A stretch of 64,000 bases of DNA from Sphingomonas natans (GTDB lineage: Bacteria; Pseudomonadota; Alphaproteobacteria; Sphingomonadales; Sphingomonadaceae), in contig NZ_JAUOTP010000005.1 of NCBI RefSeq assembly GCF_030546695.1, positions 248,001 to 312,000 on the forward strand, written 5' to 3'. The position numbers were made by a program, and so were the translations under genes. Positions 6,501-64,000 of this stretch are shown piece by piece. The notes beneath the pieces were generated by a model that saw nothing but the letters and a program-made list of their open reading frames with translations, did not search any database and was not told where the DNA came from. Within the stretch, counting starts at the first letter, position 1. Each line of letters opens with the position of its first letter.

Positions 6501-6533
6501 ATGTCCTCGGCTGGATCAGGAAGGGAAAGCTCT

Positions 6534-6851: not shown

Positions 6852-6887
6852 CGCGATGATCCAGACAAAGATCAGGAGAGAAGCGCT

Positions 6888-8635: not shown

Positions 8636-8642
8636 TCGTCGC

Positions 8643-8672
8643 AGGCAGGCGCCGCCCCGCCGGCGCCTGCCT
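8643..8672. other. Strong stem-loop between nagK and nagL
   Basis: The arms AGGCAGGCGCC (8643-8653) and GGCGCCTGCCT (8662-8672) are perfect 11-base inverted repeats around an 8-base loop, and one further G-C pair can form inside. It lies in the 56-base gap between the hydrolase stop and the isomerase start, with no T-run behind it. It could protect or process the polycistronic mRNA, or attenuate expression of the last gene. It is unlikely to be a full intrinsic terminator. Confidence 0.6.
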
Positions 8673-8691
8673 CGATATTGGGAGCTGATCG

Positions 8692-34327: not shown

Positions 34328-34333
34328 GAAACC

Positions 34334-36476: not shown

Positions 36477-36600
36477 GGCTTGTCCTCGCGCGCGCCTTGG
36501 AAGGCGACGAATAATTGATTGACCGGCACTATCCCGAGCAGGCTTGCGCCGAGAAGCAGCGGGGCCGCCGCGGTCCGGGGATGGTTGTCATCGCCCTCTG

Positions 36601-37377: not shown

Positions 37378-38408
37378 GCGACCTCCACCTTCGGCTGTGC
37401 GGGGATGAACTTCTCGTAATAGAAGTTTGCCGGCGTGACGCCGAGCTCCGCAACATGCAGCCGAACGGTTTCTACCATCTCGGGCGGCCCACACAGGTAG
37501 ATGTCGACGTTGCCCTCGGCCAGATGCATTGCGTCGAGATGCGCAATCACCCGGCCGGTGCGGGTGTGGACCTCACCCAGGCCAGAGCAGGTCGTGATGA
37601 TGGTGAGGTCCGGGATGCGCGTTGCAAGCCTGGCGATCTGCTCCATCCCGACCAGATCGGTTACGTTACGTACGCCGTAGATCAGGGTGACCGGGTGCCC
37701 AGCGGTCCCTTCAGCGGCCAGCACCTCCAGCATCGACAGGATCGGCGCAATGCCTGTTCCCCCTGCGACGAACAGCAATGGCCGCTGCGGCGCACGCAGG
37801 TAGAAACTGCCGAGCGGGCCGCGCAACGTCAGCCGGTCGCCAGCCTTCGCCATCTTCTCCAGATGGCGGCTCATCAATCCACCCGCGACGTTCCCGATCA
37901 CAAATGTGCCAGTATCGGCGCCGGGCCGCGAACTAAACGAGTAGGACCGCGTCTCATCAGCGGCCCCCGGCACCGCAATGTTCACATATTGACCGGCCAG
38001 AAAGTCCGGCAAGCTTCCGCTTGCCGCGCGGACCGCCAGACCGAGACGGCGGTTCGAAAGCTGATCGACCGCAACGATCTCGACCGCAATATCCTCGGCC
38101 TTCAGCTTCAACGCCCCGGACGGCACGGGTACGGCGATGACGCAATCGGAGGAGACCTCCATCTGACAGGTGAGCACAAGGCCCTCGGCGGCCTCGGCTG
38201 CCGTCAGGGCATCATCGATATACTCATCGCCGAGTTCATATTCGCCCTGCTCGCAGCGGCATTTGCAGGTGCCGCATACGCCATCCGAGCAGTCCATCGG
38301 CAGGTTGATCTTATTGCGAAATGCTGCGTCCAGCACTTTCTCGCCTGCGTTGCAGTCGATGAAGCGAGTTGCACCATCCTCAAAATTCAAAGCAATACGA
38401 AAACTCAT
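37374..38408 (-). CDS. benC: Benzoate dioxygenase reductase (ferredoxin + FAD/NADH)
   Basis: 344-residue one-component electron-transfer protein. An N-terminal plant-type [2Fe-2S] ferredoxin domain has ligands C40, C45, C48 and C81 (DCSDGVCGTCKC). Then an FAD domain with RSYSFSSRP and an NAD domain with VAGGTGIAP and CGPPEM. The order ferredoxin-FAD-NAD is that of BenC. It should serve BenAB; whether it can also reduce the salicylate-5-hydroxylase ferredoxin is unlikely but open. Confidence 0.94.
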   Translation of the reverse strand: MSFRIALNFEDGATRFIDCNAGEKVLDAAFRNKINLPMDCSDGVCGTCKCRCEQGEYELGDEYIDDALTAAEAAEGLVLTCQMEVSSDCVIAVPVPSGALKLKAEDIAVEIVAVDQLSNRRLGLAVRAASGSLPDFLAGQYVNIAVPGAADETRSYSFSSRPGADTGTFVIGNVAGGLMSRHLEKMAKAGDRLTLRGPLGSFYLRAPQRPLLFVAGGTGIAPILSMLEVLAAEGTAGHPVTLIYGVRNVTDLVGMEQIARLATRIPDLTIITTCSGLGEVHTRTGRVIAHLDAMHLAEGNVDIYLCGPPEMVETVRLHVAELGVTPANFYYEKFIPAQPKVEVA

Positions 38409-38429
38409 GGCGACCTCTCGACCAGACGA

Positions 38430-38918
38430 TCAGACGTGATAAACGTCGATAACCTGGTGAATGTAATCGTTCTTTAACACGATCTTCTTGTTAGTGATTA
38501 GCAGCGTATCGCCGCTAGCGTCGATCGCGTAGAAGGATGTGCCGAAAAAACTGTGCGTTTCCTTGTAGCGGTGGCTGAGAGTGTGCCAGTTGAAGCGCAC
38601 ATTGATCGCGTCTCCCTGCTCGCCAAGCACCTCGATGTTCGTGACATGGTGGTTGGTACGCGGCTCGGGCATGCTCGCGCTTGAACGCTCTGTTTTGATG
38701 CGAAACACCCGATCTTCAAGCCCGTCGCGGTTCGGGTAATAGATCAGCGAGATTTCCCGCTGCGGATCCTCCACGATCCGATCGTCATCATCCCACGCCG
38801 GCATCCAGAAGACAGCGGTTGGCGCGTAGCAGTCCAGCCACGCTTCCCAATCCCGATCATCAAGCAACCGGGCCTCGCGATACAGGAAATCGACGATTTG
38901 CTGATAGGACGGCTTCAT
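38430..38918 (-). CDS. benB: Benzoate dioxygenase small subunit
   Basis: 162-residue beta subunit; opens with [27 protein letters not shown] and has the conserved WMPAWDDDD and NHHVTNIEV pieces. The ATG overlaps the benA stop by four bases (ATGA at 38915-38918). Structural role in the alpha3beta3 oxygenase. Confidence 0.94.
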
Positions 38919-40297
38919 GCGGCCACCTTCAGCCCACCGCCGGGCCGGACGGCATTCCCGCCATTGTCGCCCCCATTCCGATCGATGGCGGCCAGCAAGG
39001 CCCTCGCCCAATATTCGTGCTGCCGGACGAAAAGACCCTCGTCTTCGCTGCGCGAGCCGCTCAGACGTGGCTCGAGGCCCTGCGCCCTGGCATTGTCATC
39101 CGGGCCCGGGAGCCAGTGTCCGGCGCCACGGCTGAGATCGTTCCACAAGTCGCCGGCACCTTCATACGCGACCTGGCAGGCGCGGAATTCCTCCAGGTCG
39201 TCTGGCGTCCCCATGCCGCTGACGTTGAAGAAATCCTCATATTGCCGGATCCGCAGCGCGCGCTCCGACGCGGCCTCGTTTTTCGGTGCGAAACAGTAGA
39301 TCGTGACCTCGGTCTGATTGACGCTGATGGGCCGGACGACACGGATCTGTGTCGAAAACTGATCCATCAGATAGACGTTGGGATACAGACCGAGATTGCG
39401 GGTTTGACCGAGAATGCGATCGGCACGCTCCTGACCCAGCCGGGCGGCCATTTCCGCGCGGTGGGGATAGTTGGGGCGCACTTCCGGATTGAGTACGTTG
39501 GTCCACAGCAGAATATGGCCATGATCGAACGCGTAAACGCCGCCGACGCTCTTCGACCATCCGTTGGCATCAACCGTGGGCGTGCCAGCGGCTTCATAAT
39601 TGCGGCGCCCCATCGTGGCCGAATAGTTCCAGTGAACCGAACTGACATGATAGCCGTCCGCCCCGTTCTCCATCTGCAGCTTCCAATTGCCATCATAGAT
39701 ATAGGACGAGTTGCCGCGCAGAACCTCAAGTCCGTCGACCGCTTGATCCACCATCTGGTCAATGATGAAGCGGGTGGTTCCGAGGTGGTGTTCAAGCGGA
39801 AGGACATCAGGATTAAGGCTGCCAAAGAGGAAGCCGCGATAGCTCTCGAACCGTGCGACCTTGGTCAGGTCATGTGAACCGTCAGTGTTGAATGTTCGCG
39901 GATAGTCGCCCGTCTTGCCGTCCTTGACCTTCAGCAAACGGCCCGTATTGGCGAACGTCCAACCGTGAAACGGACAGGTGAAGCTCGTCTTGTTCCCATG
40001 CTTGCGGCGGCACAGCATCGCGCCGCGATGCGCACAGGCGTTGATGACAGCATGAAGTTCGCCGCTTTTGTCGCGGCTAATGATGACCGGCTGTCGACCA
40101 ATCATGGTCGTATAATAGTCGTTCGTGTCTGGGATCTGGCTTTCGTGCGCCAGATACACCCAATTGCCCTCGAAAATGTGCTTCATCTCGAGCTCGAAAA
40201 GATCCGGATCGGTGAAGACGTCCCGCCGGCACCGGAACAAGCCAGCCTCGGCATCTTCAACCACTGCGGTCTCGAGGCGTTCGCGAAGAAGTTCCAT
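38915..40297 (-). CDS. benA: Benzoate 1,2-dioxygenase large subunit
   Basis: 460-residue Rieske oxygenase alpha subunit that converts benzoate to its cis-1,2-dihydrodiol. Rieske ligands C88-x-H90 and C108-x2-H111 ([17 protein letters not shown]). Mononuclear iron ligands D214-x2-H217-x4-H222 (DGYHVSSVH). It lies 23 bases after catA, and the downstream benB, benC and benD complete the enzyme. Close to the BenA length (about 450). Toluate dioxygenase XylX is the main alternative and is not separable by motif alone. Confidence 0.94.
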
Positions 40298-40320
40298 GAG
40301 ATTAGCTCCCTCGATTGGAT

Positions 40321-41214
40321 TCAGGCGACTTCGAGTCTGATTCGGCTCGATATCTGCTGCTCGTGACGGTCCTCGGCCCTCTGCAGTCTGAAGTCGAAAG
40401 CGATGTAAGCAGAATCGCCCTGGCGGTTGGGAACAGGCAGGAGACCCTCGCGCGTACCGAAGGCAAAATCGTCCGCTGCGAAGGGGTCGTCGCCAAAATT
40501 GATTTGCGTCGTCAGGTGGCGATAGCCCGGCGCCTCGACGAAAAAGTGCACATGAGCCGGGCGATTGCCGTGGCGACCGAGCGCGATCATAAGCTGATCT
40601 GCCGAGCCCCCCGGCGGAACGCTGTAGCCGTTCGGCATTTTCGAATGGAACGCGTAGCGACCATCCGCGCCGAGCTTGATGCGGCGGCGATTGTTGAACG
40701 GCGTCTGCGCGCTCGTCGGGTCAAAGTGCGAATAAAAACCTTTCGAGTTCGCATGCCAGACATGGACGATGGCGTTCTCGACGGGCTCATTGTCCGGCCC
40801 TATGATCCGGCCCGTCATGTAAAGTGTACAAGTATCATCGGGGTCAGACGAAAGATCGGCGTCGTTCTCAACCAGTGGCGCCCCCTCGACATAAAGCGGC
40901 CCCTCAATGGTGCGCGGCGTTCCGCCGGTCAGCCCTGCTTCGGCGTCCTTTGCGTCCATGTAGAGGTCGAGGAAATGCTCGAGACCGACACCGGGCATGA
41001 GCAGGCCGAATTCGGGCGCGCCGGCCTGGAGAAAGCTGACGGCACCCCACATCTCGTCTTCGGAAATGTCGTGACAAACGATGAGAGCCATCAGCGACTC
41101 AACAAGGTCGCGCAAGATTGCTTTGAGTCGAGGGTTTCCCTGATCCGACTCCGCGCCAACCACGCGATCTAACAGACGTTGGACCTCGTCAGTCTTTACG
41201 AAACTCGTATCCAT
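40321..41214 (-). CDS. catA: Catechol 1,2-dioxygenase
   Basis: 297-residue intradiol enzyme that opens catechol to cis,cis-muconate using Fe(III). Iron ligands fit the family spacing: Y161 (GFYSHFD), Y197 (GYSVP), H221 and H223 (PAHVHFFV). The N-terminal helical dimerisation segment is present. It follows catC by 30 bases. Hydroxyquinol dioxygenase is a related alternative, but the location between catC and benA supports catechol. Confidence 0.94.
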
Positions 41215-41244
41215 GAACGCTCTCCTGATTATCGTGTTGGCCGA

Positions 41245-41535
41245 TCAGCGATCGTTGTCGCGGATGGAAGAGGGATGGCGACACAGCGCCGTCACACGAA
41301 CGTCCATGAACGGATAAAGCGGAAGCCCCATCAGGACGTCGTGGAGCTCAGCGTTGTCCTCGACGTCGAAAATACTCACATTTGCGTATTGCCCGACGAC
41401 CCGCCAGATGTGGCGCCAGACGCCCTTTTCCTGGAGGTCTTGCGAGAGCTTCTTTTCCGCGGTCTTCAGTCGGTTGAACTCATCCTGATCGAACCCGATC
41501 GGGACGTTCACGTCCATCTCAACCTGGAACAGCAT
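41245..41535 (-). CDS. catC: Muconolactone isomerase
   Basis: 96-residue enzyme that shifts the double bond of muconolactone to give 3-oxoadipate enol-lactone. The family opening MLFQVEMDVNVP is followed by WRHIWRVVGQYANVSIFDV and LPLYPFMDVRVTALCRHPS. The length matches CatC (about 96). Starts two bases after the catB stop. Confidence 0.95.
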   Translation of the reverse strand: MLFQVEMDVNVPIGFDQDEFNRLKTAEKKLSQDLQEKGVWRHIWRVVGQYANVSIFDVEDNAELHDVLMGLPLYPFMDVRVTALCRHPSSIRDNDR

Positions 41536-41537
41536 GA

Positions 41538-42695
41538 TCAGGACCTCTCGGAGACAGCGTGAAGACGAGGAGCAACCCGGTCGCGCCGGTAGAAATCGAC
41601 ACGATCCGCGTCGAGCGTGACGCCGAGGCCCGGTCCATCCGGCACCTCCAGTTCGAAATCGGCGTAGCGTAGGGGCTCGGCGAGGATCTCTTCGGTCAGC
41701 AACAGTGGTCCGAAAAGCTCGGTACCCCATTCGAGCGAGGGCAGCGTGGCACAAAGATGTGCCGATGCGGCTGTGCCGACTCCGGCCTCGAGCATCGTGC
41801 CCCCATACAGCCCAACGCCGGCGGCTTGCGCGATCGTGGCAACCGCATGCGCGGGAAGAAGCCCCCCCGACTGCGCGATCTTGACCGCGAAAATCCGCGC
41901 GCCCGCTCGTGATGCGATCGCAAAAGCGTCGAGCGGCCCGTGCAGCGCCTCGTCCGCCATCAGCGGAATGATGTGCTTGGCCGACAGGCGCGCCATTGCC
42001 GAGATGTCACCACGTCTCACCGGCTGCTCGACCAGGTCCACGCCCGCATCTTGCAGCATCCGCATCCCCAGATCGGCCTGCGCTTCGCTCCAATGTTGAT
42101 TTACATCGACCCGCACGCTGCCGCGATCGCCGATCGCGCGCTTGATCTCCGCGACATGGGCGACGTCGTCGCGTACCGCGTGCTTGCCGATCTTGAGCTT
42201 GAAGATGCGGTGCCGCCTCGCTGTCAGGACGCGCTCCGCTTCCTCGATGTCGCGTCCCGTATCGCCGCTGGCGAGCGTCCAGGCGACGGGGAGCCGGTCG
42301 CGGACCCTGCCACCGCCAATAAGCTCGGAGACCGGGATGCCCAACCGCCGTCCGGCCATGTCGAGAAGGGCCGTCTCGACCGCGCACTTGGCGATATGGT
42401 TGCCCGCGACGCTCTTGCCGATGGTCGCCATCGCTAGGCCAACACGGGTCGGGTCACACGTCTTCAAGATGGGCGCGATATATGTGTCGATCGCGAGCTT
42501 GATGCTCTCGGGACTCTCTTCGCCGTAGCTGAGACCCCCAATGGTCGTCCCCTCGCCTACACCCTCGATACCGTCCGCATCACGGATCCGGACGAGGACG
42601 ATCGATTGGTGGCGCATCGTCGTCATCGCAAGAACGTGCGGCCGAATAGTCGGCACATCTACGATGAAGGTATCGATCTCTCCGATCGGGGCCAT
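41538..42695 (-). CDS. catB: Muconate cycloisomerase
   Basis: 385-residue enolase-superfamily enzyme that converts cis,cis-muconate to muconolactone with Mn2+. Catalytic residues match the family spacing: K167-x-K169 (FKLKIGK), metal ligands D198, E224 and D248, and K272 (FAVKIAQSGG). First gene of the train; its ATG lies about 91-105 bases from the ATAC-N7-GTAT site in the divergent region. Confidence 0.95.
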   Translation of the reverse strand: MAPIGEIDTFIVDVPTIRPHVLAMTTMRHQSIVLVRIRDADGIEGVGEGTTIGGLSYGEESPESIKLAIDTYIAPILKTCDPTRVGLAMATIGKSVAGNHIAKCAVETALLDMAGRRLGIPVSELIGGGRVRDRLPVAWTLASGDTGRDIEEAERVLTARRHRIFKLKIGKHAVRDDVAHVAEIKRAIGDRGSVRVDVNQHWSEAQADLGMRMLQDAGVDLVEQPVRRGDISAMARLSAKHIIPLMADEALHGPLDAFAIASRAGARIFAVKIAQSGGLLPAHAVATIAQAAGVGLYGGTMLEAGVGTAASAHLCATLPSLEWGTELFGPLLLTEEILAEPLRYADFELEVPDGPGLGVTLDADRVDFYRRDRVAPRLHAVSERS

Positions 42696-53423: not shown

Positions 53424-54434
53424 ATGGTAATCGACATTCATTGTCACCTTGGCATCCCGGAGGCCGATGCGATTGTCCAGGCGCGATATCCGGGCCCGCC
53501 GCCTGGCATCAACGATTTTGCCAGCGCCAGGACACTCGAGGTCAATCGCACCCAGTTCGAAGCGATCGGCCGAACGCTGAACACGATCGACACGCGCCTC
53601 GCAGACATGGATCGTCTAGGCATTGATGTGCAGGCCCTCTCGCCTAATCCGGGACAATATTATTATCACACGGATGCAGAAACGGGGCGCGAGGCGGCGA
53701 GAGCTGTTAACGACGGTATGGCGGCCGCTGTCGCCCAACACCCGGATCGGCTCATCGCGATGGGGACGGTTCCGCTCCAGAACATCGAGATGGCGGTCGA
53801 GGAGATGCGCCGCTGCGTGAAGGAACTCGATCTGCGCGGGATCGAAATCAGCTCGAACGTCGGCGGGCTGGACTATGATGCGGCGGAGTTTCGGCCGTTC
53901 TTCGCCGCGGCGGAGGAGCTAAGCATTCTCCTCTTCATCCATCCACTGGGATTTACGCATGCACAGCGAATGAGCGACTATTATTTCAATAATCTGATCG
54001 GAAACCCGGTCGAATCGACTTTGGCGATTGGCCATCTCATCTTCGGCGGCGTGCTCGATCGCTTCCCCGGGCTGAAGATCTGCGTCGCGCACGGCGGAGG
54101 ATATATGCCGGGCTATTGGGGCCGGATGGACCATGGATGGCGTGCGCGCTCTGACTGTGCCGAACGGTGCCAGAATCTGCCCTCCTCCTATCTCCGCAAG
54201 CTGTGGCTGGACACGCTGGTGTTCGATCAGGACCAGCTAGAAAGCCTGGTTCGTACGCATGGCGCCGATCGCCTGTGCTTAGGCAGCGACTATCCGTTCG
54301 ACATGGCCGAGCCCGATCCGGTTGGTTTCCATGGCCGCCTTAGCGAACGGGATCAGGCGCTTATACTCGGGCTCAACGCCGCTGACCTGCTGGGGCTGAC
54401 GCGGCTCCACGGCGCTACAGCGACCGCTTCATAG
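53424..54434 (+). CDS. ACMSD-type amidohydrolase / decarboxylase
   Basis: 336-residue TIM-barrel metal enzyme of the amidohydrolase-2 (ACMSD) group. Metal ligands are H6 and H8 (DIHCHLG), His in FIHPLGF, His in CVAHGGGYMPG, and Asp in LGSDYPFDM. Members decarboxylate aminocarboxymuconate semialdehyde, gamma-resorcylate, 5-carboxyvanillate or similar acids. The start follows GGGGAC. It ends overlapping the convergent MFS gene by 20 bases. It may feed a decarboxylated phenol to the nearby cluster, but the substrate is unknown. Confidence 0.87.
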   Translation: MVIDIHCHLGIPEADAIVQARYPGPPPGINDFASARTLEVNRTQFEAIGRTLNTIDTRLADMDRLGIDVQALSPNPGQYYYHTDAETGREAARAVNDGMAAAVAQHPDRLIAMGTVPLQNIEMAVEEMRRCVKELDLRGIEISSNVGGLDYDAAEFRPFFAAAEELSILLFIHPLGFTHAQRMSDYYFNNLIGNPVESTLAIGHLIFGGVLDRFPGLKICVAHGGGYMPGYWGRMDHGWRARSDCAERCQNLPSSYLRKLWLDTLVFDQDQLESLVRTHGADRLCLGSDYPFDMAEPDPVGFHGRLSERDQALILGLNAADLLGLTRLHGATATAS

Positions 54435-55620
54435 CGATCGACGAGGGCTGGCGCGGACGAACGCGCGGAAGCCGCAAGAACAGCAGGATCGCAACGACGA
54501 GCCCGGCAGCGGCAACGAAAAGCGGTGCCCGGTAGCTGCTGGTACGATCGGCCAGCGCGCCGACCCATACCGGCCCGACGCCCGCCATCAACATGAAGCT
54601 CGCATATTGGAGGGCGTAGAGCCGGCCGTAGCGCGCCATCCCGAAATAGCGCGCAGTAAGATAGCCGATCAGGTCCGCTTCGGCGCCCATCGCGCTGCCA
54701 AGTGCGATCGCTCCGACCCAGGCGAGCGGGGTTCCGCCAAGGGCCAGCGTCAGGCATCCAGCCGCGCAGATCGCACAGCAGCCGGCCGCGACACGGGGCG
54801 CTTCATAGCGGTCACTGAGCCAGCCCACGATCAGTCGGCTGACGATGACCGACGCTCCGATCAGTCCCGCGACTTGGCCCGCGCTGCGCGCCTCCATCCC
54901 GGACTCTCGCAGCATCGGCACGAAGTGAGGCAGAAAACCGGCGAAGGCGAGCGCCATCGCGCCGAACGCTGTGAGCAGCAGCAAAAAGGTGGAAGAAGAA
55001 AAAGCAGCCCGAGGCTCGGGCGTTTGCGAGGCTAGAATGAGGCTTCGCGGTAGGCGCGAAGCTGGAATCGTGCCTGCCAGCGCGATAAGCGCGAGCAGCT
55101 TGTAGCCTGCCTGCCACCCGTTCGTCGCCACCGTAGCGGCCACGATCGGCGGCACCACCATCGCGGCGACGCCGATGCCCGACTGGGTGAGGCCGAGCGC
55201 TAGACCGCGCGAGCGATCGAAGGCTCCACTCACCGCGCGCATATACGCAACGGGCGCCGAGAAGGCGCCGCCGAAGCCGACGAGCGCCATCACGATCATG
55301 TAAGCTGGCACCGACTGGACGAACGTGCCCAAGGCAAGGAAACCCGCCGAAAGCGCCACCGCACCGAACATGGCGGGCCAGCGCGGCCCGTAGCGATCCA
55401 CGAGCCTGCCGACGATCGGCAGCGCGCATGCCAGCGCGATCGTGGAGAGGAAGAAGGCCGTGCCCAATTGCGTGCGCGTAAGGCCGATAGCGGTCTGCAG
55501 GTCTTTCGCGAAGATGCCGGCCGTGTAGGTCAGCAGCCCTGCAATACCGAGCCCCACTCCGGGCGCCGCGGCGGCCACGATCGGCCAACCGCGGCGGAGT
55601 TCTAATGGAGCGTCGCTCAA
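54415..55620 (-). CDS. MFS transporter
   Basis: 401-residue major facilitator with 12 predicted membrane segments and the loop motif GRLVDRYGPRW. It resembles the oxalate/formate- and monocarboxylate-transporter-like group (TQSGIGVAAMVVPPI). The TTG start at 55620 overlaps the stop of TonB receptor 3 (TTGA). A longer upstream frame is antisense to nothing functional and is rejected. As last gene of the cluster it probably moves the aromatic substrate or an organic acid across the inner membrane. Confidence 0.85.
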   Translation of the reverse strand: MSDAPLELRRGWPIVAAAAPGVGLGIAGLLTYTAGIFAKDLQTAIGLTRTQLGTAFFLSTIALACALPIVGRLVDRYGPRWPAMFGAVALSAGFLALGTFVQSVPAYMIVMALVGFGGAFSAPVAYMRAVSGAFDRSRGLALGLTQSGIGVAAMVVPPIVAATVATNGWQAGYKLLALIALAGTIPASRLPRSLILASQTPEPRAAFSSSTFLLLLTAFGAMALAFAGFLPHFVPMLRESGMEARSAGQVAGLIGASVIVSRLIVGWLSDRYEAPRVAAGCCAICAAGCLTLALGGTPLAWVGAIALGSAMGAEADLIGYLTARYFGMARYGRLYALQYASFMLMAGVGPVWVGALADRTSSYRAPLFVAAAGLVVAILLFLRLPRVRPRQPSSIAMKRSL

Positions 55621-57953
55621 TAGTGGACGCCTACGCGCACGCCATAGGTACGCGGCGGGGTGACGGTCAGGATCGTGGTGTTGACGATCGGTCGGGTCAG
55701 GCCGCCCGCTTTGACGACATTGTCTTCCACGTTGTTGACAAAGCCCGTGATCGACCAGCGACCGTCCGGCGCCGTGAGGGTCAGATAGGCGTCGGAGGTC
55801 GAATAGCCGCCGCGCTTTTGATACGAGAGATAATCGAGGTTGAGCCAGGCGGACGTCTCGAGCCGGCTGCGCGCGCCCGCAATCAGTTCGTACTTTCCGC
55901 CGAGCGCGAAGCGATGCTCGTAGCTGACATTGGCAGTCCATTTCGGCGAATACACGCCGGGCTTGCCCGAACAATCGACAACGAACAGTCGGGTCGGGGG
56001 CGTGGGCCGCCGTGCATCGTTCGCCACCGTGCAGCTCGTCACCAGCGGCGCGCCGCTGGTGGAGATGCCGTTATAGACGAGGCTTTGATAGCGCGCGTTG
56101 AGATATTGAACAGTCGCCCCGAACGTGTCGCGCTGCGTGGGCTGGAAGACCAGTTCGGCCTCGGCGCCGTACATCCGCGCCTTGCCCGCATTCACCGTCA
56201 CGCCGGCCTGCGCGAAATTGCCCGGCGTCGCCTCGATCGGGCCGACATAGCTGATCTGCTGATCCCGATAACGCCAGTAGAACGCCTCCAAATTAAGCTG
56301 CAGCTTGTTTTCGAAAAAGCGGTTCTTCGATCCCAGCGTGTAGGCGGTCAAGGTCTCGGGCTTGTAGGTGTTGGCCCCGGCGGACGGGTAGAAGCCGCCA
56401 GCCTTGAAGCCGGTCGAGACGTTACCATAGACGAGCGAGCGCGGCCCGGCGTCCCACTCGAAGCCGCCCTTCCAGGTAAACTTGTCGAAGGACAGATCGC
56501 CATTGATCGGCACGGATGGCGGGTTGGGTATGAAAAAGCTTGTATTCCGGGTCGTGCCCGTCAGCGACTTGTCTTCCTTTGTGTAGCGCCCGCCACCGAC
56601 CAGACGAAATCCGTCGGCCAGCGCATATGTAAGTTGTCCGAAAACGGCCTTGCTGGTCGTCTCCAGGCGGGGATAATATTCGGTATTGGCAAGCAGGCCC
56701 TGGTTATAGTTGTTGTAGCCGTTCTGCTTCTCCCAAAAGTAGAAAGCGCCGAGAACATAGCGCAGGGGCCCGGTGTCCTTCGAGGACAGACGGATCTCGG
56801 CGGACATCTGATCATCGTCCTCGACAAGACGTCCCGGGAACCCAGGCGCATAGGTGAGGATGTCGGGCTTGCTTTTGCGATAAGCGAGGATGGTTGTGAG
56901 GTCTGCAAAACCCATATCGCCGTTTGTGGTGAGCGATGTACCGTAGAAATCGCTGCGCTGGTAACCGTTCTGCGCCGGAACGGTAACGACGTTGCGGATC
57001 GTAGCCGGAGGCAGGCTCGAGAACGGCGGAATGAAGCTGAACTGGTTGAAGGTCACTTGCTGCAGCTGCGCAGTGATCGTGGGATCGGCAGCGCCGACCC
57101 GCTGGCCTGGCGACGGAACATTGGGCGTCACCGGCGAGGCGAACAGCACGCCGCCCACACCCTTGCCACCTTGGTGCGCATAGTCGGCTGCGAGGAGCAT
57201 GGAGAAGTCGCTGCTCGGCTGGAACAGGATGCTCGCACGGACCGCCTGGGACTTCTCATCGTTATAACCGTCGGACAGATAGCCGTCGCGATCGACGACC
57301 TGCCCGGCCACGCGGATCGCAACCGTCTGTCCCAAAGGCAGGTTGATTCCTCCCTGGACCTTCTTGCTGTCGAAATTACCATATTCGGCAGTCAGATCCG
57401 CGCCGAAGCTGTTGAGCTTTGGAAGGCGCGGGATCACATTGATCGCGCCACCGGTTGCGTTGCGGCCGTACAGCGTGCCCTGCGGCCCCTTAAGAACCTC
57501 GACGCGGTCAAGGTCGTAGAAGGTAGCGGCCGGCGCTGTCGGACGCGCGTAAAACACGCCGCCGACCGAAAACGCCACGGCATTTTCCTGAAAGGAATTG
57601 ATCGCGGTCGCACCGACGCCGCGGATGAAAAAGCTGGACGAGATACCGACAGGTTGCACCGTCAAGGCCGGTATCAGCTTGGTCAGCTGGGAAGGGTCGC
57701 TGACGCCGGCGTTGACCAGCGCATTGCCGGTAACCGCCGTGGCAGCAATAGCCGCGCGCTGTAGGCTTTCCGAGCGGCGCTGCGCCGTAACGACGATGTC
57801 AGTGATGCCCTGCATATCTTGCTCAGGCGCCGGCGGGGCGTCCGCCGCTCCCTGCTGTCCGGATGCCGGTTCGCTCGCTTGCGGCTGCGCCAGCGCAACT
57901 CCGCTCCAAAGCATTGCACTCAAGGCGACGCCGCCGACCAGCTGCTTGCGCAC
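55617..57953 (-). CDS. TonB-dependent outer-membrane receptor 3
   Basis: 778-residue receptor. The start is GTG at 57953 with GGGAGGGTTGGA upstream. Signal peptide about 1-22 (AMLWSGVALAQ), TonB-box-like ITDIVVTAQRRSESLQ, plug domain with AVAFSVGGVFYARP and LKGPQGTLYGRNATGGAINVI, and a beta-barrel ending GVRVGVHY. Its stop overlaps the MFS start, joining outer-membrane and inner-membrane uptake in one unit with the catabolic cluster upstream. Confidence 0.93.
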   Translation of the reverse strand: MRKQLVGGVALSAMLWSGVALAQPQASEPASGQQGAADAPPAPEQDMQGITDIVVTAQRRSESLQRAAIAATAVTGNALVNAGVSDPSQLTKLIPALTVQPVGISSSFFIRGVGATAINSFQENAVAFSVGGVFYARPTAPAATFYDLDRVEVLKGPQGTLYGRNATGGAINVIPRLPKLNSFGADLTAEYGNFDSKKVQGGINLPLGQTVAIRVAGQVVDRDGYLSDGYNDEKSQAVRASILFQPSSDFSMLLAADYAHQGGKGVGGVLFASPVTPNVPSPGQRVGAADPTITAQLQQVTFNQFSFIPPFSSLPPATIRNVVTVPAQNGYQRSDFYGTSLTTNGDMGFADLTTILAYRKSKPDILTYAPGFPGRLVEDDDQMSAEIRLSSKDTGPLRYVLGAFYFWEKQNGYNNYNQGLLANTEYYPRLETTSKAVFGQLTYALADGFRLVGGGRYTKEDKSLTGTTRNTSFFIPNPPSVPINGDLSFDKFTWKGGFEWDAGPRSLVYGNVSTGFKAGGFYPSAGANTYKPETLTAYTLGSKNRFFENKLQLNLEAFYWRYRDQQISYVGPIEATPGNFAQAGVTVNAGKARMYGAEAELVFQPTQRDTFGATVQYLNARYQSLVYNGISTSGAPLVTSCTVANDARRPTPPTRLFVVDCSGKPGVYSPKWTANVSYEHRFALGGKYELIAGARSRLETSAWLNLDYLSYQKRGGYSTSDAYLTLTAPDGRWSITGFVNNVEDNVVKAGGLTRPIVNTTILTVTPPRTYGVRVGVHY

Positions 57954-58219
57954 TCCAACCCTCCCATTTCTGCTTATTATTGGCCCGCCGTAACACTCCC
58001 AAAGCATCAGGAAAAATTGAGATATCGGATGCTCAGCTATCTATTCGATAAATACTTGATGCGCTGTGCGGCGGCGAGCATGGATGGCGCCAAGCTTCGA
58101 GCGGTCCAGACCGCTGGTCCCGCATGCCGGGTTATCGCGGCCGTTGATACACGCGCGTTATCGCTGCATAGTTGCAGCGCTTCCCGGGTCCGTTTGGGCG
58201 CGATATGCGCGCCAGCACA
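57954..58219. promoter_or_regulatory. Gap between FAH-family gene and TonB receptor 3
   Basis: 266 bases without a gene. It is partly AT-rich (about 57965-58065) and could hold a separate promoter for the receptor/MFS pair, so the receptor may not depend only on the upstream operon. Confidence 0.4.
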
Positions 58220-59179
58220 TTAAGCCTGGACGATCCGCTGCTCGAGAATGCCGAACAAGAGCACGTCGTCGATACCACGCGCTTCCATCCGCACGGTCTC
58301 GCCGAAGCGAAGAAACGGCGTTTGCGGGTTGCCGCCGGCGACGATCTCCGCACCGCGTCGCTCGGAAATGCAGGTTGAGCCGACTGTCGCCTGATCGTCA
58401 TTCGAAACCGTGCCCGAGCCGATGATCGTGCCGGCCGGCAGCGATCGGGTGCGCGCGGCGTGCGCGATCAGCTCATGAAACCCGAATGCCATCTCGGACC
58501 CGTTGGGCTCACCGAACAGCGCACCATCGCGCCATACGCGCAGCGGGAGGCTGATCCGCCCATTTGACCAGGCCGCGCCCAGCAAATCGGGCGTGATCGC
58601 GACCGGCGCGACACTGCAGCAGGGCTTGGCCTGAACCCATCCAAAGCCGGTCTTCATCTCGATCGGCGCGATGGCGCGTAGCGACCAGTCATTGATCTGC
58701 ACGACCAGCTTGATGTGCGACATCGCGTCCGCAGCCGAGACGCCCATGGGCACCGCATCGGTAATGATCCCGAACTCGCCTTCGAAATCGATGCCGTCGG
58801 CCTCGCTCGGGAAAGGAACGTCGTCCGTCCCGCTCAGGAACTGGTGCGACATGCCCTGGTACATCAGCGGCAGATCCGTCTCGATCGGTGGCAGGTGGAA
58901 CGCCTTCTGCATCATCGCGCCGTGGCTCGGGAAAGCGGACCCGTCGAGCCACTGCCAGGCGCGCGGAAGCGGGGCGGCAAAGGTCCGGTCGCCCAGCGGC
59001 TCGCCGCCGCCGGATGCGAGCTGATCCGCGCCGGCGGCCAGCGTCGCCTGGAGCGCATTCCACTGCTCCAGCGCCTGCTGCAGGGTCGCCACGGGGCCCG
59101 GGAGGATCCGCGCATGATCGTCCGAGACCAGCACCAGCCGGCCATCGGGCGATCCGTCGTGAAGCGTTGCGAGCCTCAT
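58220..59179 (-). CDS. FAH-family hydrolase
   Basis: 319-residue protein with an N-terminal domain (MRLATLHDGSPDGRLVLVS) and the FAH catalytic domain. Family blocks are SDGIDFEGEFGIITD-like (ADGIDFEGEFGIITD, acidic metal ligands), INDWSLRAIAPIEMKTGFGW and GSGTVSNDDQA. Predicted to hydrolyse a C-C bond in a 1,3-diketo acid, as fumarylacetoacetase does. Its ATG overlaps the cyclase-family stop by four bases. In this cluster it would act after ring cleavage. Confidence 0.85.
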   Translation of the reverse strand: MRLATLHDGSPDGRLVLVSDDHARILPGPVATLQQALEQWNALQATLAAGADQLASGGGEPLGDRTFAAPLPRAWQWLDGSAFPSHGAMMQKAFHLPPIETDLPLMYQGMSHQFLSGTDDVPFPSEADGIDFEGEFGIITDAVPMGVSAADAMSHIKLVVQINDWSLRAIAPIEMKTGFGWVQAKPCCSVAPVAITPDLLGAAWSNGRISLPLRVWRDGALFGEPNGSEMAFGFHELIAHAARTRSLPAGTIIGSGTVSNDDQATVGSTCISERRGAEIVAGGNPQTPFLRFGETVRMEARGIDDVLLFGILEQRIVQA

Positions 59180-59955
59180 TCCTCAATAATCGCGACAGCA
59201 CGGGTCCAGCCCGCCGAGGCGCCCTTGATCTTGTGTGGGAAGCAGCTGACGGTGAAGCCGTGGCCGGGCAGCGCTTCCAAATTGTGCAGCTTCTCGAGGT
59301 GACAGTAGCCGATGTCGCGGCCAGCCTTGTGCCCCTCCCAGATCAGCGATGTGTCCCCGGTCTCGGCGACCTTCTTGGCCGTATAGCTGAAGGGCGCATC
59401 CCAGCTCCACGCGTCGGTGCCGGTCACCCGAACGCCGCGCGTAGTCAGATACATCGTCGCCTCGTAGCCCATGCCACAGCCGACATTGACGAAATTCGGG
59501 TCGCCAAGCGCCCCGCCCGCGGCCGTGTTGACCAGGACGATGTCCAAGGGCTGCAGATCGTGGCCGATCCGCACCAGCTCGGCTTCGACATCCGCCGCTG
59601 TCACGACGTAGCCATCCGGGAAGTGGCGGAAGTCGAGCTTCACGCCGGGGCGAAAACACCAGTCCAGCGGGACTTCGTCGATCGTGATCGCACGTTGCCC
59701 GCCGTCCATCGTCGGGTGGAAATGATAGGGGGCGTCGAGATGCGTGCCGTTGTGTGTGGTCAGCGTCACCCATTCCGCCGCGGCGAAGCCCGCGCCGTCG
59801 GGCGTCTGCTCGGCCGTGACGCCAGGGAAGAAATGTCCCAACTCCCCAACCGTCTCGCTGTGCGTCTGATAGGTGATCTTAGGCCTCATGAAAGGCGGAT
59901 CGGTGATGACGTCATTCTCCAGCAGAATGGAGAGATCGATGAACTGGCGGGTCAT
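59176..59955 (-). CDS. Cyclase-family metal hydrolase (kynurenine formamidase-like)
   Basis: 259-residue member of the cyclase (PF04199) family. The metal motif H-x3-H-x-D-x3-H is visible as H68, H72, D74 and H78 (THNGTHLDAPYH). Such enzymes include kynurenine formamidase and isatin hydrolase, cleaving amide bonds. The ATG overlaps the stop of the small membrane protein (ATGA). Its role in the cluster is unknown; it could open a lactam or lactone intermediate. Confidence 0.87.
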   Translation of the reverse strand: MTRQFIDLSILLENDVITDPPFMRPKITYQTHSETVGELGHFFPGVTAEQTPDGAGFAAAEWVTLTTHNGTHLDAPYHFHPTMDGGQRAITIDEVPLDWCFRPGVKLDFRHFPDGYVVTAADVEAELVRIGHDLQPLDIVLVNTAAGGALGDPNFVNVGCGMGYEATMYLTTRGVRVTGTDAWSWDAPFSYTAKKVAETGDTSLIWEGHKAGRDIGYCHLEKLHNLEALPGHGFTVSCFPHKIKGASAGWTRAVAIIEE

Positions 59956-60383
59956 GGCTTGGCCTGTTGTGCAGAGTTGAAAAGAAGGCGCAGCGCGATC
60001 GGCGTGACGATCGCAGCGAGGATGCCGCCGAACACAGCCTTGAGGGGCAGCATCGACGCGAGCGGGAGCAGCGTTGCGGGATGTGTGGCGAACCACCGCC
60101 AGCCAAGGCCGCCGGCGATCGCTGCGGACAGGATGGCGATCCCAAGGCAGCGCAGCACGATCGGCCGGATCCCACCGCCGAGCCGGCGATTTGCGATCAG
60201 CGAGGGCACCAGCGTGCCCATCAACGCGACCATGAAGGACTGGGGAAAGAAATCGGGCCCCACCGCGCCCAGCGCGAAGGGCCCCCGGGTGCCGAACAGC
60301 CCCACGAAGAAGCCGATGCTCAGCACAACATTGATGACGACGCTGATCACGGTCTCGCGCAGGATCAGCGTTCGCCGGTTCAT
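59952..60383 (-). CDS. Small four-helix membrane protein
   Basis: 143 residues with about four hydrophobic segments (IGFFVGLFG, MVALMGTLVPSLI, GIAILSAAIAGGLGW, AVFGGILAAIVTPIAL). No family is recognised. Both starts and stops overlap its neighbours by four bases, so it is a genuine operon member. It may be an accessory transport or stability subunit. Confidence 0.75.
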   Translation of the reverse strand: MNRRTLILRETVISVVINVVLSIGFFVGLFGTRGPFALGAVGPDFFPQSFMVALMGTLVPSLIANRRLGGGIRPIVLRCLGIAILSAAIAGGLGWRWFATHPATLLPLASMLPLKAVFGGILAAIVTPIALRLLFNSAQQAKP

Positions 60384-61537
60384 GCCGTGTGGCCGCCCAG
60401 CTTTTCCGCGAACCAGTCCGCGATATAATCGCGGCCGAAGCTCATATTATCAGCTCCGACATGCTCGACGCCGCCCTCGCGCGGGGTGAAGATCTTAAGT
60501 TCGCGATCCGAAGTGCCGGTCAACTGGTCATAGCTGCGGTGCGCATAGTCCAGCGCGATCTGCCGATCGGATTCGCCATGCGTGACCAGGAACGGCACAC
60601 GGATCCGCTCCATGACGCTGTCCAGCGTCATGCCCCGCGACTTTGCATGGAAGTCCTCCATGTCGGCGGCACCGAAGACCCACATCACGTGCGCCCAATA
60701 ATGCGGAACCGGATTCTCGCTCTCGCGCCGGAGCCTCTTCTGCTGCACTTCGGCCCAATCGTGGTTTGCGCCCCACACGGCGCCGGCCGCAAAGCGCGGC
60801 TCGAACGCCACGGCGCGCGGGGCGAAATAGCCGCCGAGCGAAATGCCGGTCATGCCAATGCGCGCGGGATCGACGAACGGTTGCGTTTCGGCCCAGTCGA
60901 CCCACTTGGACGCCCAGAGCTCGGCCTCGTGCGTGACCGGAATTCCCTGCAAGCGGATCGCCTCGCCGGTACCCGGCTGATCGACGCAGAGCGTGGAAAT
61001 GCCGCGCTTCGCCAGCGCATGCGGCAGCCAGGAAAAATAAAGCAGCTCCTTGCTGCTATCGAGCCCGTTGCAATAGATCACCAATGGCGACGGCCCGTCG
61101 CCCGGCGCGCGGGTCAGCAGGCCTGCGATATCGCTGCCCTCATAGGGGATCGTGACCCGCTCGACATTGTCGCCAGCCATCGCCGTGCCCCGCGCAAAGG
61201 CGTCGAGCGCCTTGGCGTAGGTTTCCTGCCGGCCGGGATGGCCGTGGCCCTGCATGCGCTCGGCGGTCGTGTAGTAGAGCGATGCGCGCTTCAGTTTCTG
61301 GCCCGCCGAATAGCGGCGCCCCCTTCCCTCGTCTTCTTGCGCAAGGCTGGACAGCTTGTCGGCCATCTTCACCCATTCGCGCATGAACGCTGGCGTGCCT
61401 GCATCGCCCCCGCTTGCCGCCGCGTCCTTGATCGGCGCACACATGTCGACGATCTCGCCGATCTTGCCGCCGCTCTCGAGCGCAATCGCGAGGCTCAAAT
61501 TCCAGATATAGTTCGGGAAATATTCGAACAGGGCCAT
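60380..61537 (-). CDS. Alpha/beta hydrolase, dihydroxypseudooxynicotine-hydrolase-like
   Basis: 385-residue hydrolase with a helical N-terminal domain (about 1-120) and a catalytic domain (PLVIYCNGLDSSKE opening). The nucleophile is S233 (GISLGG), with Asp in VTHGESDRQI and His near VEHVGADN. The layout resembles 2,6-dihydroxypseudooxynicotine hydrolase and FrsA-like enzymes, which cut C-C bonds next to a carbonyl. It follows the extradiol dioxygenase gene by four bases, the expected place for a ring-fission-product hydrolase. Confidence 0.85.
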   Translation of the reverse strand: MALFEYFPNYIWNLSLAIALESGGKIGEIVDMCAPIKDAAASGGDAGTPAFMREWVKMADKLSSLAQEDEGRGRRYSAGQKLKRASLYYTTAERMQGHGHPGRQETYAKALDAFARGTAMAGDNVERVTIPYEGSDIAGLLTRAPGDGPSPLVIYCNGLDSSKELLYFSWLPHALAKRGISTLCVDQPGTGEAIRLQGIPVTHEAELWASKWVDWAETQPFVDPARIGMTGISLGGYFAPRAVAFEPRFAAGAVWGANHDWAEVQQKRLRRESENPVPHYWAHVMWVFGAADMEDFHAKSRGMTLDSVMERIRVPFLVTHGESDRQIALDYAHRSYDQLTGTSDRELKIFTPREGGVEHVGADNMSFGRDYIADWFAEKLGGHTA

Positions 61538-61541
61538 GCGA

Positions 61542-62447
61542 CTACACCTCGACCGCCTGGAACAGGCCCTTGTCCGGCTCAGGATGCGGCATAGTTTGCG
61601 GTCCGCCCACGCCGGTGCCCCACTGGTCCATCACCTGCGGCCCCGGAACGTGGACCTGATGCTGGTGCAAGTCGTCGTCCACATCGTCGAGCTCGGACGT
61701 ATATTCGATCGCGAAGCCGTTCGGGGACACGAAATAGCTGAACGTGTTGTTGCCCGCCGTATGCCGCCCAGGACCCCATTTGATACCGGTGCCCATCTTG
61801 TTGAGACGGCTGACGCCGCGCATCATGTCGTCAACGCTCAACATGTCGTAGGCGACATGGTTGAGGCAGGGCGGCCCGGGCAGGATCGCAAGCCGATGAT
61901 GCGCCGAATTGCAGCGCAAGAAGCACATGAAATCGCCGAGCCAATCCGACACGCGAAAGCCGAGCACATCGGTGAAGAACTTCACCGCCGCCTGATGATC
62001 GGGTGAGTGCAGCACGATGTGGCTGATCTTCTGCGGCACGCCTTCCCAGCGCACCATCTCCCGCTTCTGCCCGCGCTCGACATCGCTCGACACTTCGAAC
62101 GGCAGGCCATCCGGCGAGAAGAAGCGAAAGCCGTAGCCGCCGCCCAATTGGGTAAGGTCGCGAGGCGCGAAGATGATCCGGCAGCCGGCATCGCGGACCT
62201 GCGCGAACAACGCATCGGAGTCGGCACGGCTGGCGGCGGCGAGCGCGATCACATCGACGCGCTTCTCCTCGGACGGGCGCAGCCGGACGACATAGGGTTC
62301 GTCGTGACCATGCGTGGCGAAATAGACGAGCCCGTCCTGCTCGGCCGCTTCGCGCAAGCCCCAGGTGTCCCGATAGAATTCGCGCTCGGTCGCCAAGTCG
62401 GGAACGCCATAACCGACGTACCGGATCTCATTCACTCGTGCCATCAT
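61542..62447 (-). CDS. Type I extradiol dioxygenase (VOC fold)
   Basis: 301-residue two-domain VOC enzyme. Fe(II) ligands match the 2,3-dihydroxybiphenyl dioxygenase pattern: H143 (ISHIVLHSPD), H197 (LNHVAYDM) and E248 (FAIEYTSEL). Full metal set suggests an active ring-cleaving enzyme. It is directly behind the FAD monooxygenase gene. The substrate, a catechol-like ring, cannot be read from sequence. Confidence 0.9.
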   Translation of the reverse strand: MMARVNEIRYVGYGVPDLATEREFYRDTWGLREAAEQDGLVYFATHGHDEPYVVRLRPSEEKRVDVIALAAASRADSDALFAQVRDAGCRIIFAPRDLTQLGGGYGFRFFSPDGLPFEVSSDVERGQKREMVRWEGVPQKISHIVLHSPDHQAAVKFFTDVLGFRVSDWLGDFMCFLRCNSAHHRLAILPGPPCLNHVAYDMLSVDDMMRGVSRLNKMGTGIKWGPGRHTAGNNTFSYFVSPNGFAIEYTSELDDVDDDLHQHQVHVPGPQVMDQWGTGVGGPQTMPHPEPDKGLFQAVEV

Positions 62448-62466
62448 ATACTCCTTGGCTGTCCGA

Positions 62467-63582
62467 TCAGATCGGTTGAGCCACGACTTCGAACATGCCG
62501 CGGGTCGCGGCGCTTTGGTCCACCGGCTCGCCGTTCACCTGCGCGTCACAGATCGCGAGCGACGCCTCGACGATGTAACGACAGCGCTCGAAGCGGCGGT
62601 TTCGATACGCGGTGAACGCCGTCTCCGGATCGTCGGCGCGTCCCAATTCCTCGGCAAGCACCAGCGAATCTTCGATCGCCATGCCGGCGCCCTGGCCCAG
62701 ATGGGGGGTCGTCGCATGGATCGCGTCGCCCAAGAGCACGATCCGCCCCTTGTGCCAGTCGCCTTGCAGAAACAGCATCTCGAGCGGCTTGTAGACCACC
62801 GCATCATCATCAACGATCTGATCGGCTAGCGCGTTGATCGCCGGCGCTGATCCGGCGAGCTTGTCGCGCATCGCCGCCGCAAGGCCCTCGCGCGGGTACC
62901 GCGGATTGCCCGGCTCGGGCGTGGTCACGAACAGATACATCAGTTCGTTCGACAGCGGCACGAGCCCAATGCCCTTGGGGCCTTCATATATCTGGAGAGC
63001 GTCCATGTCCGCCGGACGGGGGAAATTATAGCGCCACACGCTCTGCCCGACGAACTTCGGGTCGGGCGAGTCGACGAAGATCATCTTTCGCGTTTCGGAA
63101 TAGAGGCCGTCCGCTCCCACTACGATGTCCCATCGCCCGGTGGTGCCGTCGGACAGCGTCACGTCGACGCCTGTGCCGTCATCGTCTAGCCGCGTGGCGC
63201 TGACGCCCAGGCGGATATTCGCACCTGACAAAACAGCGCGGTCGCCCAACACCTTTTGCAATGCGCGGCGGCCAATGCCGACATTGGCTGGATAGGCTTC
63301 CGTCAGCTTGGGGGTTGGGAAGCGGGCGACGCGTTGCCCGCTTGGAATATAGATTTCGATATCGCTGAATGGGAAACCGGCACCGACATAATCGTCGAGG
63401 ATGCCAAGCTCCGCGACGGCGCGCACGACGTTCGCCTGCTGAATGATGCCGACCCCATAGACTGACCAGTCAGGATCGCGCTCGATGACATCTACCGAAA
63501 AGCCCTTGCGGCCCAGGGCGATCGCAGCGGTCAGCCCGCCAATGCCACCGCCGATGACCAACACACGGCTGATTGACGACAT
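62467..63582 (-). CDS. FAD-dependent aromatic monooxygenase
   Basis: 371-residue flavoprotein of the salicylate/6-hydroxynicotinate 3-monooxygenase class. The N-terminal GxGxxG is VIGGGIGGLTAAIALG, the middle GADG motif is VVGADGLYSETR, and the C-terminal GD motif is LLGDAIHATTPHLGQG. Start at 63582 (MSSISRVL) is preferred over an upstream GTG by CAGGATAG spacing. First gene of the cluster; hydroxylation would produce the diol for the dioxygenase. A LysR gene lies 116 bases upstream in the same direction. Confidence 0.88.
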   Translation of the reverse strand: MSSISRVLVIGGGIGGLTAAIALGRKGFSVDVIERDPDWSVYGVGIIQQANVVRAVAELGILDDYVGAGFPFSDIEIYIPSGQRVARFPTPKLTEAYPANVGIGRRALQKVLGDRAVLSGANIRLGVSATRLDDDGTGVDVTLSDGTTGRWDIVVGADGLYSETRKMIFVDSPDPKFVGQSVWRYNFPRPADMDALQIYEGPKGIGLVPLSNELMYLFVTTPEPGNPRYPREGLAAAMRDKLAGSAPAINALADQIVDDDAVVYKPLEMLFLQGDWHKGRIVLLGDAIHATTPHLGQGAGMAIEDSLVLAEELGRADDPETAFTAYRNRRFERCRYIVEASLAICDAQVNGEPVDQSAATRGMFEVVAQPI

Positions 63583-63698: not shown

Positions 63699-64000
63699 CT
63701 ATCGAGCGGCCGCCTCTCGAATTTGTGAGATCAACCACTGAAGGCCTATGTCGGTGACGCGGGTCCGATGATACTGCGCCATCTCGTGCATGTCGGGGAA
63801 AGCGAAGGGCAGCGCGGCGTGGGTGATCGCAACATGGTCAGCCATCATCACGGCAAGCCGCCGGTGCATGACGGCAAGGCGATCAGTGCCGACCAGCATC
63901 CAAGGCACCATCATGAAAGAAGAGACGACCGCCTCGATCCGCCGATCATATTTGAGCAGCTCGATCTGCCGGTCCCCGAATGTCGTCGTACGGTGGGTAC
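63699..64000 (-). CDS. LysR-type regulator, C-terminal part (cut by window edge)
   Basis: The minus-strand frame runs from the window end to a TAG at 63701-63699. The visible part (about 100 residues) has HRRLAVMMADHVAITHAALPFAFPDMHEMAQYHR and ends DIGLQWLISQI, typical of NahR/NodD-group LysR effector domains. NahR-like proteins respond to salicylate-type aromatics. It is upstream of the FAD monooxygenase gene and is the obvious regulator of that cluster; the DNA-binding part lies outside the window. Confidence 0.85.
   Translation of the reverse strand, partial: THRTTTFGDRQIELLKYDRRIEAVVSSFMMVPWMLVGTDRLAVMHRRLAVMMADHVAITHAALPFAFPDMHEMAQYHRTRVTDIGLQWLISQIREAAAR

Follow-up and report, generated by a model that had tools for sequence, protein, structure and literature searches.

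An operon of eight genes in Sphingomonas natans is probably a sphingomonad variant of the fde/ifc-type operons for meta-cleavage of the flavonoid A-ring. It lies in a stretch of 64,000 nucleotides, hereafter the window (NCBI RefSeq assembly GCF_030546695.1, contig NZ_JAUOTP010000005.1, positions 248,001 to 312,000 of the forward strand). Its gene content was established from open reading frames and family profile searches (Pfam, NCBIfam), and neighbour loci were mapped by tblastn. An initial annotation had described an aromatic-degradation operon with an FAD-dependent aromatic hydroxylase (FMO) and an extradiol dioxygenase, which the profile matches confirm, and had regarded the combination of families as unassigned. 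However, homologues of four of the enzymes and of the regulator are found in fde/ifc-like clusters.

Relatives in fde- and ifc-like clusters

Named plasmids were searched with the VOC-type dioxygenase and the alpha/beta hydrolase of the operon, and genomes were scanned with an FdeC-like VOC protein, of whose 512 relatives the best 80 were kept. Together with four plasmid loci, the latter make a set of 84 named loci, chosen for their FdeC-like VOC and called fde-like here. On plasmids, the same gene set as in the window was found in Sphingobium, Novosphingobium, Sphingomonas, and Croceicoccus. Relatives of the hydrolase in Azospirillum, Burkholderia, and Massilia are encoded inside clusters with genes for a VOC protein, a Rieske protein, an FMO, a fumarylacetoacetate hydrolase (FAH)-family protein, and a LysR-type regulator, and some of these clusters also contain cyclase, cupin, and epimerase genes. 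The 84 fde-like loci have, besides the VOC gene, matches to the hydrolase (74 loci), FMO (75), Rieske protein (78), cyclase (47), FAH-family protein (52), and cupin (34). Similarly, the ifc loci are described as encoding an FMO, a glyoxalase, a protein resembling 2,6-dihydroxypseudooxynicotine (DHPON) hydrolase, and cupins, all similar to fde gene products (PMC11069340), and FdeE is paired with the Rieske protein FdeD (PMC8552027). The DHPON-hydrolase-like alpha/beta hydrolase characteristic of fde/ifc clusters is present in the window. An FdeC-like VOC gene was found in 6 of the 398 genomes of a phylum sample, and no Herbaspirillum is among the best 80 of the 512 FdeC-like relatives.

A bridge between the window and fde-like loci is a metagenome-assembled genome of the SAR86 cluster (L077), which encodes an FMO, hydrolase, and cyclase of the window type (65, 72, and 79% identity) with an FdeC-like VOC and a Rieske protein within 10 kb. 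Furthermore, 14 of 18 Pseudomonas loci encode an FMO that is 49–52% identical to that of the window, and 13 of these 14 also have the FdeC-like VOC, Rieske, and hydrolase genes. Loci where FdeC-like VOC and Rieske genes adjoin a window-like FMO or hydrolase gene (L105, L132, L141–L143, and other Pseudomonas loci) were seen in P. chlororaphis, P. brassicacearum, P. kilonensis, and P. thivervalensis. As a control, four contexts outside these groups were hand-picked starting from the hydrolase; each of the four has a nearby VOC gene, and three have an FMO match. The control locus on a Deinococcus aetherius plasmid also carries genes for a C-glycoside deglycosidase pair and a GMC oxidoreductase; these lie in one run (L188:2037-14207) with VOC, cyclase, FAH, and hydrolase genes and with genes for two FAD oxidoreductases, an SMP-30 protein, and an epimerase.

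The individual enzymes

The FMO scores 466 bits against the NF005313 model (cut-off 372 bits), against 500–553 bits for the FMOs of three fde-like clusters, and is 41, 39, and 40% identical to those of the Azospirillum, Burkholderia, and Massilia clusters, respectively. It contains the motifs GxGxxG at residue 11 and GDAxHxxxPxxxxG at residue 285 and lacks the F motif; the same pattern, also without the F motif, was reported for FdeE (PMC9422121). Because such motifs are common, this agreement is weak evidence. The VOC protein is a near-full-length homologue (E 6e-145) of PDB 3b59, a glyoxalase/dioxygenase family protein whose molecule name carries no substrate. Its residues H143, H197, and E248 and H184, H229, and Y238 line up with those of BphC, and we take them to be the 2-His-1-Glu iron ligands and the catalytic His and Tyr residues, respectively; the full set of iron ligands already noted in the initial annotation is thus borne out by alignment.

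The best PDB matches of the hydrolase are Ayg1-like 8qd7 and the DHPON hydrolase 2jbw (E 2e-16 each), both of which are presumably C–C bond hydrolases, and the protein retains a GISLGGY motif. It is 58, 57, and 55% identical to the cluster proteins of Azospirillum, Burkholderia, and Massilia, and 63% to that of Alloyangia. The cyclase-family hydrolase (hereafter cyclase), with the sequence HNGTHLDAPYH at residue 68, is 77, 73, and 61% identical to its counterparts in the Azospirillum, Burkholderia, and Alloyangia clusters, and no cyclase was found at the Massilia locus. For the FAH-family protein, the identities to the Azospirillum, Burkholderia, and Massilia proteins are 47, 54, and 45%.

The LysR-type regulator of the operon shares 40% identity with its counterpart in the Azospirillum cluster. 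The earlier proposal of a NahR-type regulator, and hence of induction by an aromatic acid, has little support: the NCBIfam matches listed for the protein include no NahR model, and the LysR-type regulator FdeR responds to the flavonoids naringenin, chrysin, and daidzein (PMC10799723). The LysR gene of the operon lies upstream of it and in the same orientation, but only its 3' end is within the window (63998–63699); the whole gene spans L032:3699-4763.

Distribution in sphingomonads and association with glycoside genes

Among 298 Sphingomonadaceae genomes, 49 gave a match to the VOC protein (E ≤ 1e-60). In 36 of them, including that of the window, the identity is at least 63%, and the remaining 13 have matches at 48–56% only. 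The 36 genomes contribute 37 loci, all of which were used, and with nine plasmid loci they make 46 sphingomonad loci. Anywhere in the stretches fetched, partners are found for the hydrolase at 44, the FAH-family protein at 41, and the FMO at 39 loci. Since the set recurs in this way, its genes have not come together by chance. One genome (G036, loci L040 and L041) and two Novosphingobium plasmids (L155/L190 and L156/L194) each have the set in duplicate; the additional cyclases of N. resinovorum and Novosphingobium P6W belong to such second copies, of which that of P6W lies near tannase-like, glycoside hydrolase family 3 (GH3), and GH43 genes.

The set is associated with genes for the removal of C-linked sugars. 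The beta subunit of C-glycoside deglycosidase (PF19906) is encoded in 16 of the 298 genomes, of which 15 are among the 36 with a VOC orthologue (Fisher p 1e-14), and in none of the 13 with only a paralogous VOC (36 versus 13, p 0.0035). Counted by genus, 10 of 11 genera with PF19906 fall among the 19 of 96 with the set (p 8e-8; hand-made tallies). Shared ancestry or lifestyle is not completely corrected for in these tests. The distance between the PF19906 and VOC genes is at most 20 kb in 5 and at most 75 kb in 8 of the 15 genomes; in the remainder, more than a million bases separate them or they lie on different contigs. At 11 of the 46 loci, including four of the nine plasmid loci, the set has genes for sugar processing nearby (GMC, Gfo/Idh, sugar-isomerase-like, GH3, or C-glycoside deglycosidase). 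On a Croceicoccus marinus plasmid (L154:1438-19011), genes for a TIM-barrel protein and a C-glycoside deglycosidase beta subunit lie on both sides of the set, the first pair identified by Pfam and the second by annotation and tblastn. No sugar-gene matches were found at eight loci of a paralogous cluster type, which are too few to tell. This type (L048–L053, L160, and L161) has a VOC that is 47–56% and an FMO that is 35–42% identical to those of the window, and no cyclase match.

Proposed pathway

The following scheme is drawn from established chemistry and from the published ifc result. The TonB-dependent receptor and the MFS transporter would import a flavonoid-type polyphenol, and the FMO would hydroxylate its A-ring beside an existing hydroxyl group, in flavonoids converting the 7-OH into a 7,8-catechol. 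The VOC dioxygenase may then cleave the catechol beside the carbon that bears the ring oxygen, between C8 and C8a. C8a would become a lactone carbonyl with the ring oxygen, so that the C-ring becomes a lactone to which an oxo-acid side chain is attached. The FrsA/DHPON-type hydrolase is predicted to cut between C4a and C5, leaving a 4-hydroxy-2-pyranone, and C5–C8 would leave as a C4 acid, i.e., oxaloacetate if C5 bears a hydroxyl group. In agreement with the initial annotation, Pfam and NCBIfam searches find no hydratase, aldolase, or dehydrogenase gene in the operon; if an oxaloacetate-like acid is released, no hydratase, aldolase, or semialdehyde dehydrogenase would be needed. The cyclase, as a putative pyranone lactonase, would open the remaining 4-hydroxy-2-pyranone lactone, the FAH-family enzyme may cleave or decarboxylate the resulting oxo-acid, and the B-ring part would exit as an aryl acid or ketone. 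Consistently, a double mutant of the Variovorax cupins accumulates 2-hydroxy-5-(4-hydroxyphenyl)-4H-pyran-4-one (PMC11069340), which by our reasoning may be regarded as a tautomer, in its isoflavone version, of the lactone predicted here.

The cyclase and a cupin appear to alternate in sphingomonads. With a cupin subfamily defined by at least 60% identity to the Croceicoccus protein, a cut set after the values were known, the 46 loci comprise 23 with the cyclase, 20 with the cupin, none with both, and three with neither. In five further plasmid loci, four have the cyclase and one neither, which gives 27, 20, 0, and 4 for all 51 loci; those with neither are L175, which is cut by a contig end, L179, L180, and L196. 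In the best tree, built from the 43 VOC rows with either gene (L190 and L194–L197 were left out), the cyclase/cupin label changes five times, and at least two changes are forced by well-supported branches. Two of the 43 rows are identical, which leaves room for some overlap between plasmid and genome records. Most simply, both enzymes would open the pyranone. The Variovorax cupins IfcD1 and IfcD2 convert the pyranone into C10H10O3 and C10H10O4 (PMC11069340), and by our own arithmetic the mass of the former equals that of the pyranone plus H2O minus CO2. Two findings speak against replacement of one enzyme by the other, however: their joint occurrence at 28 of the 84 loci outside the sphingomonads, and the more distant cupin homologues (36–53% identity) near the cyclase at 11 cyclase loci, L190 among them.

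Taken further, the pathway would have been rebuilt in sphingomonads, with a 3b59-like instead of an FdeC-like VOC, without a Rieske protein, with cyclase or cupin interchangeable at the pyranone-lactone step, and coupled to C-glycoside deglycosylation. This fuller scenario is put forward tentatively.

Several observations weigh against the assignment to flavonoid A-ring cleavage. The label fde-like was given because composition matches; H. seropedicae and Variovorax V35 entered the comparison by their published descriptions and not by their sequences. The identity between the FMOs of about 40% is too low for transfer of substrate or position, and NF005313 is not specific, as the FMO of the paralogous cluster L160 also passes it (439 bits). 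The VOC protein aligns with FdeC-like VOCs at 33–39% identity over 126–128 residues of the C-terminal half only (125 columns in the profile alignment); judged by sequence against FdeC-like proteins rather than FdeC itself, it is of another subfamily. A tblastn search with the Azospirillum Rieske protein found no Rieske ferredoxin in the window locus (32 kb) or at the other 45 loci. In Variovorax, daidzein degradation was unaffected when the gene for the DHPON-like hydrolase was disrupted (PMC11069340), so that the C–C hydrolase step is unproven. Cyclase homologues are encoded on 103 matching plasmid records, and three relatives at 67–69% identity, in Aminobacter, Mesorhizobium, and Variovorax boronicumulans, have transporter, FAH-type, or transposase genes as neighbours and neither FMO nor VOC genes; this family is thus wider than a flavonoid-type pathway. 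As to the sugars, the genome of the window has no PF19906 gene in the scan of 298 genomes, none of the tested sugar genes is nearby at 35 of the 46 loci, and C-glycosides include those of xanthones and anthraquinones and not of flavonoids alone.

Alternative substrates

The latter point leads to the question whether the same chemistry might act on another polyphenol, a hydroxylated benzopyranone or aryl ketone such as a xanthone, anthraquinone, coumarin, stilbene, or acylphloroglucinol, to which the sphingomonad VOC would be adapted. The separate subfamily of this VOC would fit such a substrate, and so would the activity of C-glycoside deglycosidases from soil, which take C-glycosides of flavonoids, xanthones, and anthraquinones (PMC8563793). 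However, FdeC-like clusters have the hydrolase, cyclase, and FAH-family protein as well, and this points to ring-cleavage products that are much alike; we consider another polyphenol unlikely. Far less probable still is a meta-cleavage route for simple phenolic acids from lignin, i.e., hydroxybenzoates or hydroxyphenylpropanoids. The FMO and VOC families are general enough to allow it, and benzoate and gentisate routes are also encoded in the window, but the lack of hydratase, aldolase, and dehydrogenase genes in the operon and the link to C-glycoside genes are at odds with it, and it was rejected on family-model scores, the VOC protein falling far below the cut-offs of the models for HpaD, catechol 2,3-dioxygenase, BphC, and HsaC.

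From the cyclase, the initial annotation had deduced a nitrogen heterocycle, lactam, or lactone intermediate. A lactone is plausible, whereas a nitrogen heterocycle or a kynurenine/quinoline-type substrate, with the cyclase acting as an amidase, is very improbable. PF04199, the family of the cyclase, presumably includes kynurenine formamidase, and the cyclase weakly matches isatin hydrolase 4j0n (PF04199). Also, DHPON hydrolase acts in nicotine degradation (PMC11069340), and a gene for an ACMSD-like amidohydrolase adjoins the operon on the other strand. Against this stands the score of the cyclase with the arylformamidase (kynurenine formamidase) model TIGR03035, on which the idea was rejected (28 bits, cut-off 223), and those of its relatives at 73–90% identity that were examined are located in clusters with VOC, hydrolase, and FAH genes. 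The ACMSD-like gene is present, at >60% identity, at one of the 46 loci, and its 80–82% identical relatives belong to another cluster type (L048–L050 and L160). Flavonoid A-ring cleavage thus remains the preferred assignment.

Gene order and neighbouring genes

The eight open reading frames run from 63582 to 54415 on the minus strand behind the LysR gene (Table 1), and their common strand, tight packing, and families agree with the initial annotation. Codon-usage gene calls were trained on these eight genes themselves and are no independent support. The gaps are 19 bases between the FMO and VOC genes and 4 bases between the VOC and hydrolase genes, followed by three 4-base overlaps up to the FAH gene; the TonB receptor gene follows after 212 bases and the MFS gene after a further ~23–38 bases. 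By eye, the sequence of the 143-residue protein, without match in the Pfam and NCBIfam searches, suggests four transmembrane helices. It has matches at 11 of the 46 loci, the window's own included, and the TonB receptor has a match of some kind at 34.

Table 1. Operon genes and regulator in window coordinates.
Feature	Position	Strand	Remarks
LysR-type regulator, 3' end only in window	63699..63998	−	300 bases; whole gene L032:3699-4763
FAD-dependent aromatic hydroxylase (FMO), 371 residues	62467..63582	−	NCBIfam NF005313/PRK06847 subfamily
VOC-type extradiol dioxygenase, 301 residues	61542..62447	−	homologue of PDB 3b59, not FdeC-like type
Alpha/beta hydrolase, FrsA/DHPON-hydrolase type, 385 residues	60380..61537	−	PF06500
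Hydrophobic protein, 143 residues	59952..60383	−	no family profile matched
Cyclase-family hydrolase, 259 residues	59176..59955	−	PF04199, HxGTHxDxPxH motif
FAH-family protein, 319 residues	58220..59179	−	PF01557 and PF18288; PDB homologue 3lzk
TonB-dependent outer-membrane receptor	55617..58007	−	start uncertain, 57953 alternative
MFS transporter	about 54415..55593	−	start uncertain

Beyond the LysR gene, the other strand carries a second TonB receptor gene (L032:4749-7121) and, 2.5 kb past the LysR gene, a GH3 glycoside hydrolase gene (L032:7264-9786). A gene for a VanA-type Rieske oxygenase (L032:11438-12613) lies ~7 kb from the regulator; in L037, L066, and L166, its relatives (68–69% identity) are likewise close to the set, which would suit methoxylated polyphenols. 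At the other end, the ACMSD-like gene (53424–54434, plus strand) overlaps the end of the MFS gene by 20 bases; it was rejected as an operon member because of its strand and its rarity at the 46 loci.

A route from benzoate via catechol to beta-ketoadipate is encoded at 33125–42695. Its BenC, muconate cycloisomerase, CoA transferase B, and 3-oxoadipyl-CoA thiolase exceed the cut-offs of their models, and the large subunit of benzoate dioxygenase (730 of 781 bits) and catechol 1,2-dioxygenase (326 of 392 bits) stay below theirs; an unsubstituted B-ring might be channelled into this route. A salicylate/gentisate-type cluster at 4771–9318 encodes an AndAc-like Rieske dioxygenase alpha subunit (below cut-off), a ring-hydroxylating beta subunit, gentisate 1,2-dioxygenase (above cut-off), an FAH-family protein, and a GST-like protein.

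Possible significance

Flavonoids serve plants as major signals and defence compounds. If the proposed function is correct, about one eighth of the sampled Sphingomonadaceae genomes (36/298) carry a recognisable gene for flavonoid-type ring cleavage, and part of them pair it with sugar-removing genes. It would also supply candidate functions for 3b59, a solved structure with no assigned substrate, and for the cyclase-family hydrolase. Novosphingobium is reported to degrade naringenin and to protect bark beetles (PMC6064089); the main text of that paper does not contain the phrase "gene cluster". Judged by titles and the openings of abstracts, no paper on a sphingomonad flavonoid cluster was recognised in the open-access literature.

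Comparison with known systems

Loci of fde/ifc composition share homologues of the hydrolase, the FAH-family protein, the FMO, and, in part, the cyclase and the LysR protein with the window. The ifc cluster of Variovorax V35, for isoflavones (IfcA, IfcB, and IfcD1/D2), resembles the operon in its FMO, VOC, and DHPON-hydrolase-like protein and has the pyranone as an intermediate (PMC11069340). In contrast to ifc, the window has a cyclase-family enzyme; two cupin queries, IfcD not among them, found no cupin in 32 kb round the window locus, and the VOC differs from that of FdeC-like loci. The structures 2jbw and 8qd7 are distant members of the sequence family of the hydrolase, and a different substrate is expected. 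With the fde operon of Herbaspirillum seropedicae SmR1, for naringenin (FdeE, FdeC, FdeD, and FdeR), the operon would have in common A-ring hydroxylation led by an FMO, cleavage by a VOC protein, and a LysR-type regulator, whereas its VOC is unlike the type that adjoins Rieske genes and a Rieske protein was not found. Because an FdeC-like VOC, a Rieske protein, and a cupin were not found, the locus is not classed as an fde operon proper. New here is the sphingomonad variant, with another VOC, no Rieske protein found, and either cyclase or cupin; the combination that had seemed unassigned is mostly explained, and the operon most likely works like the fde operon.

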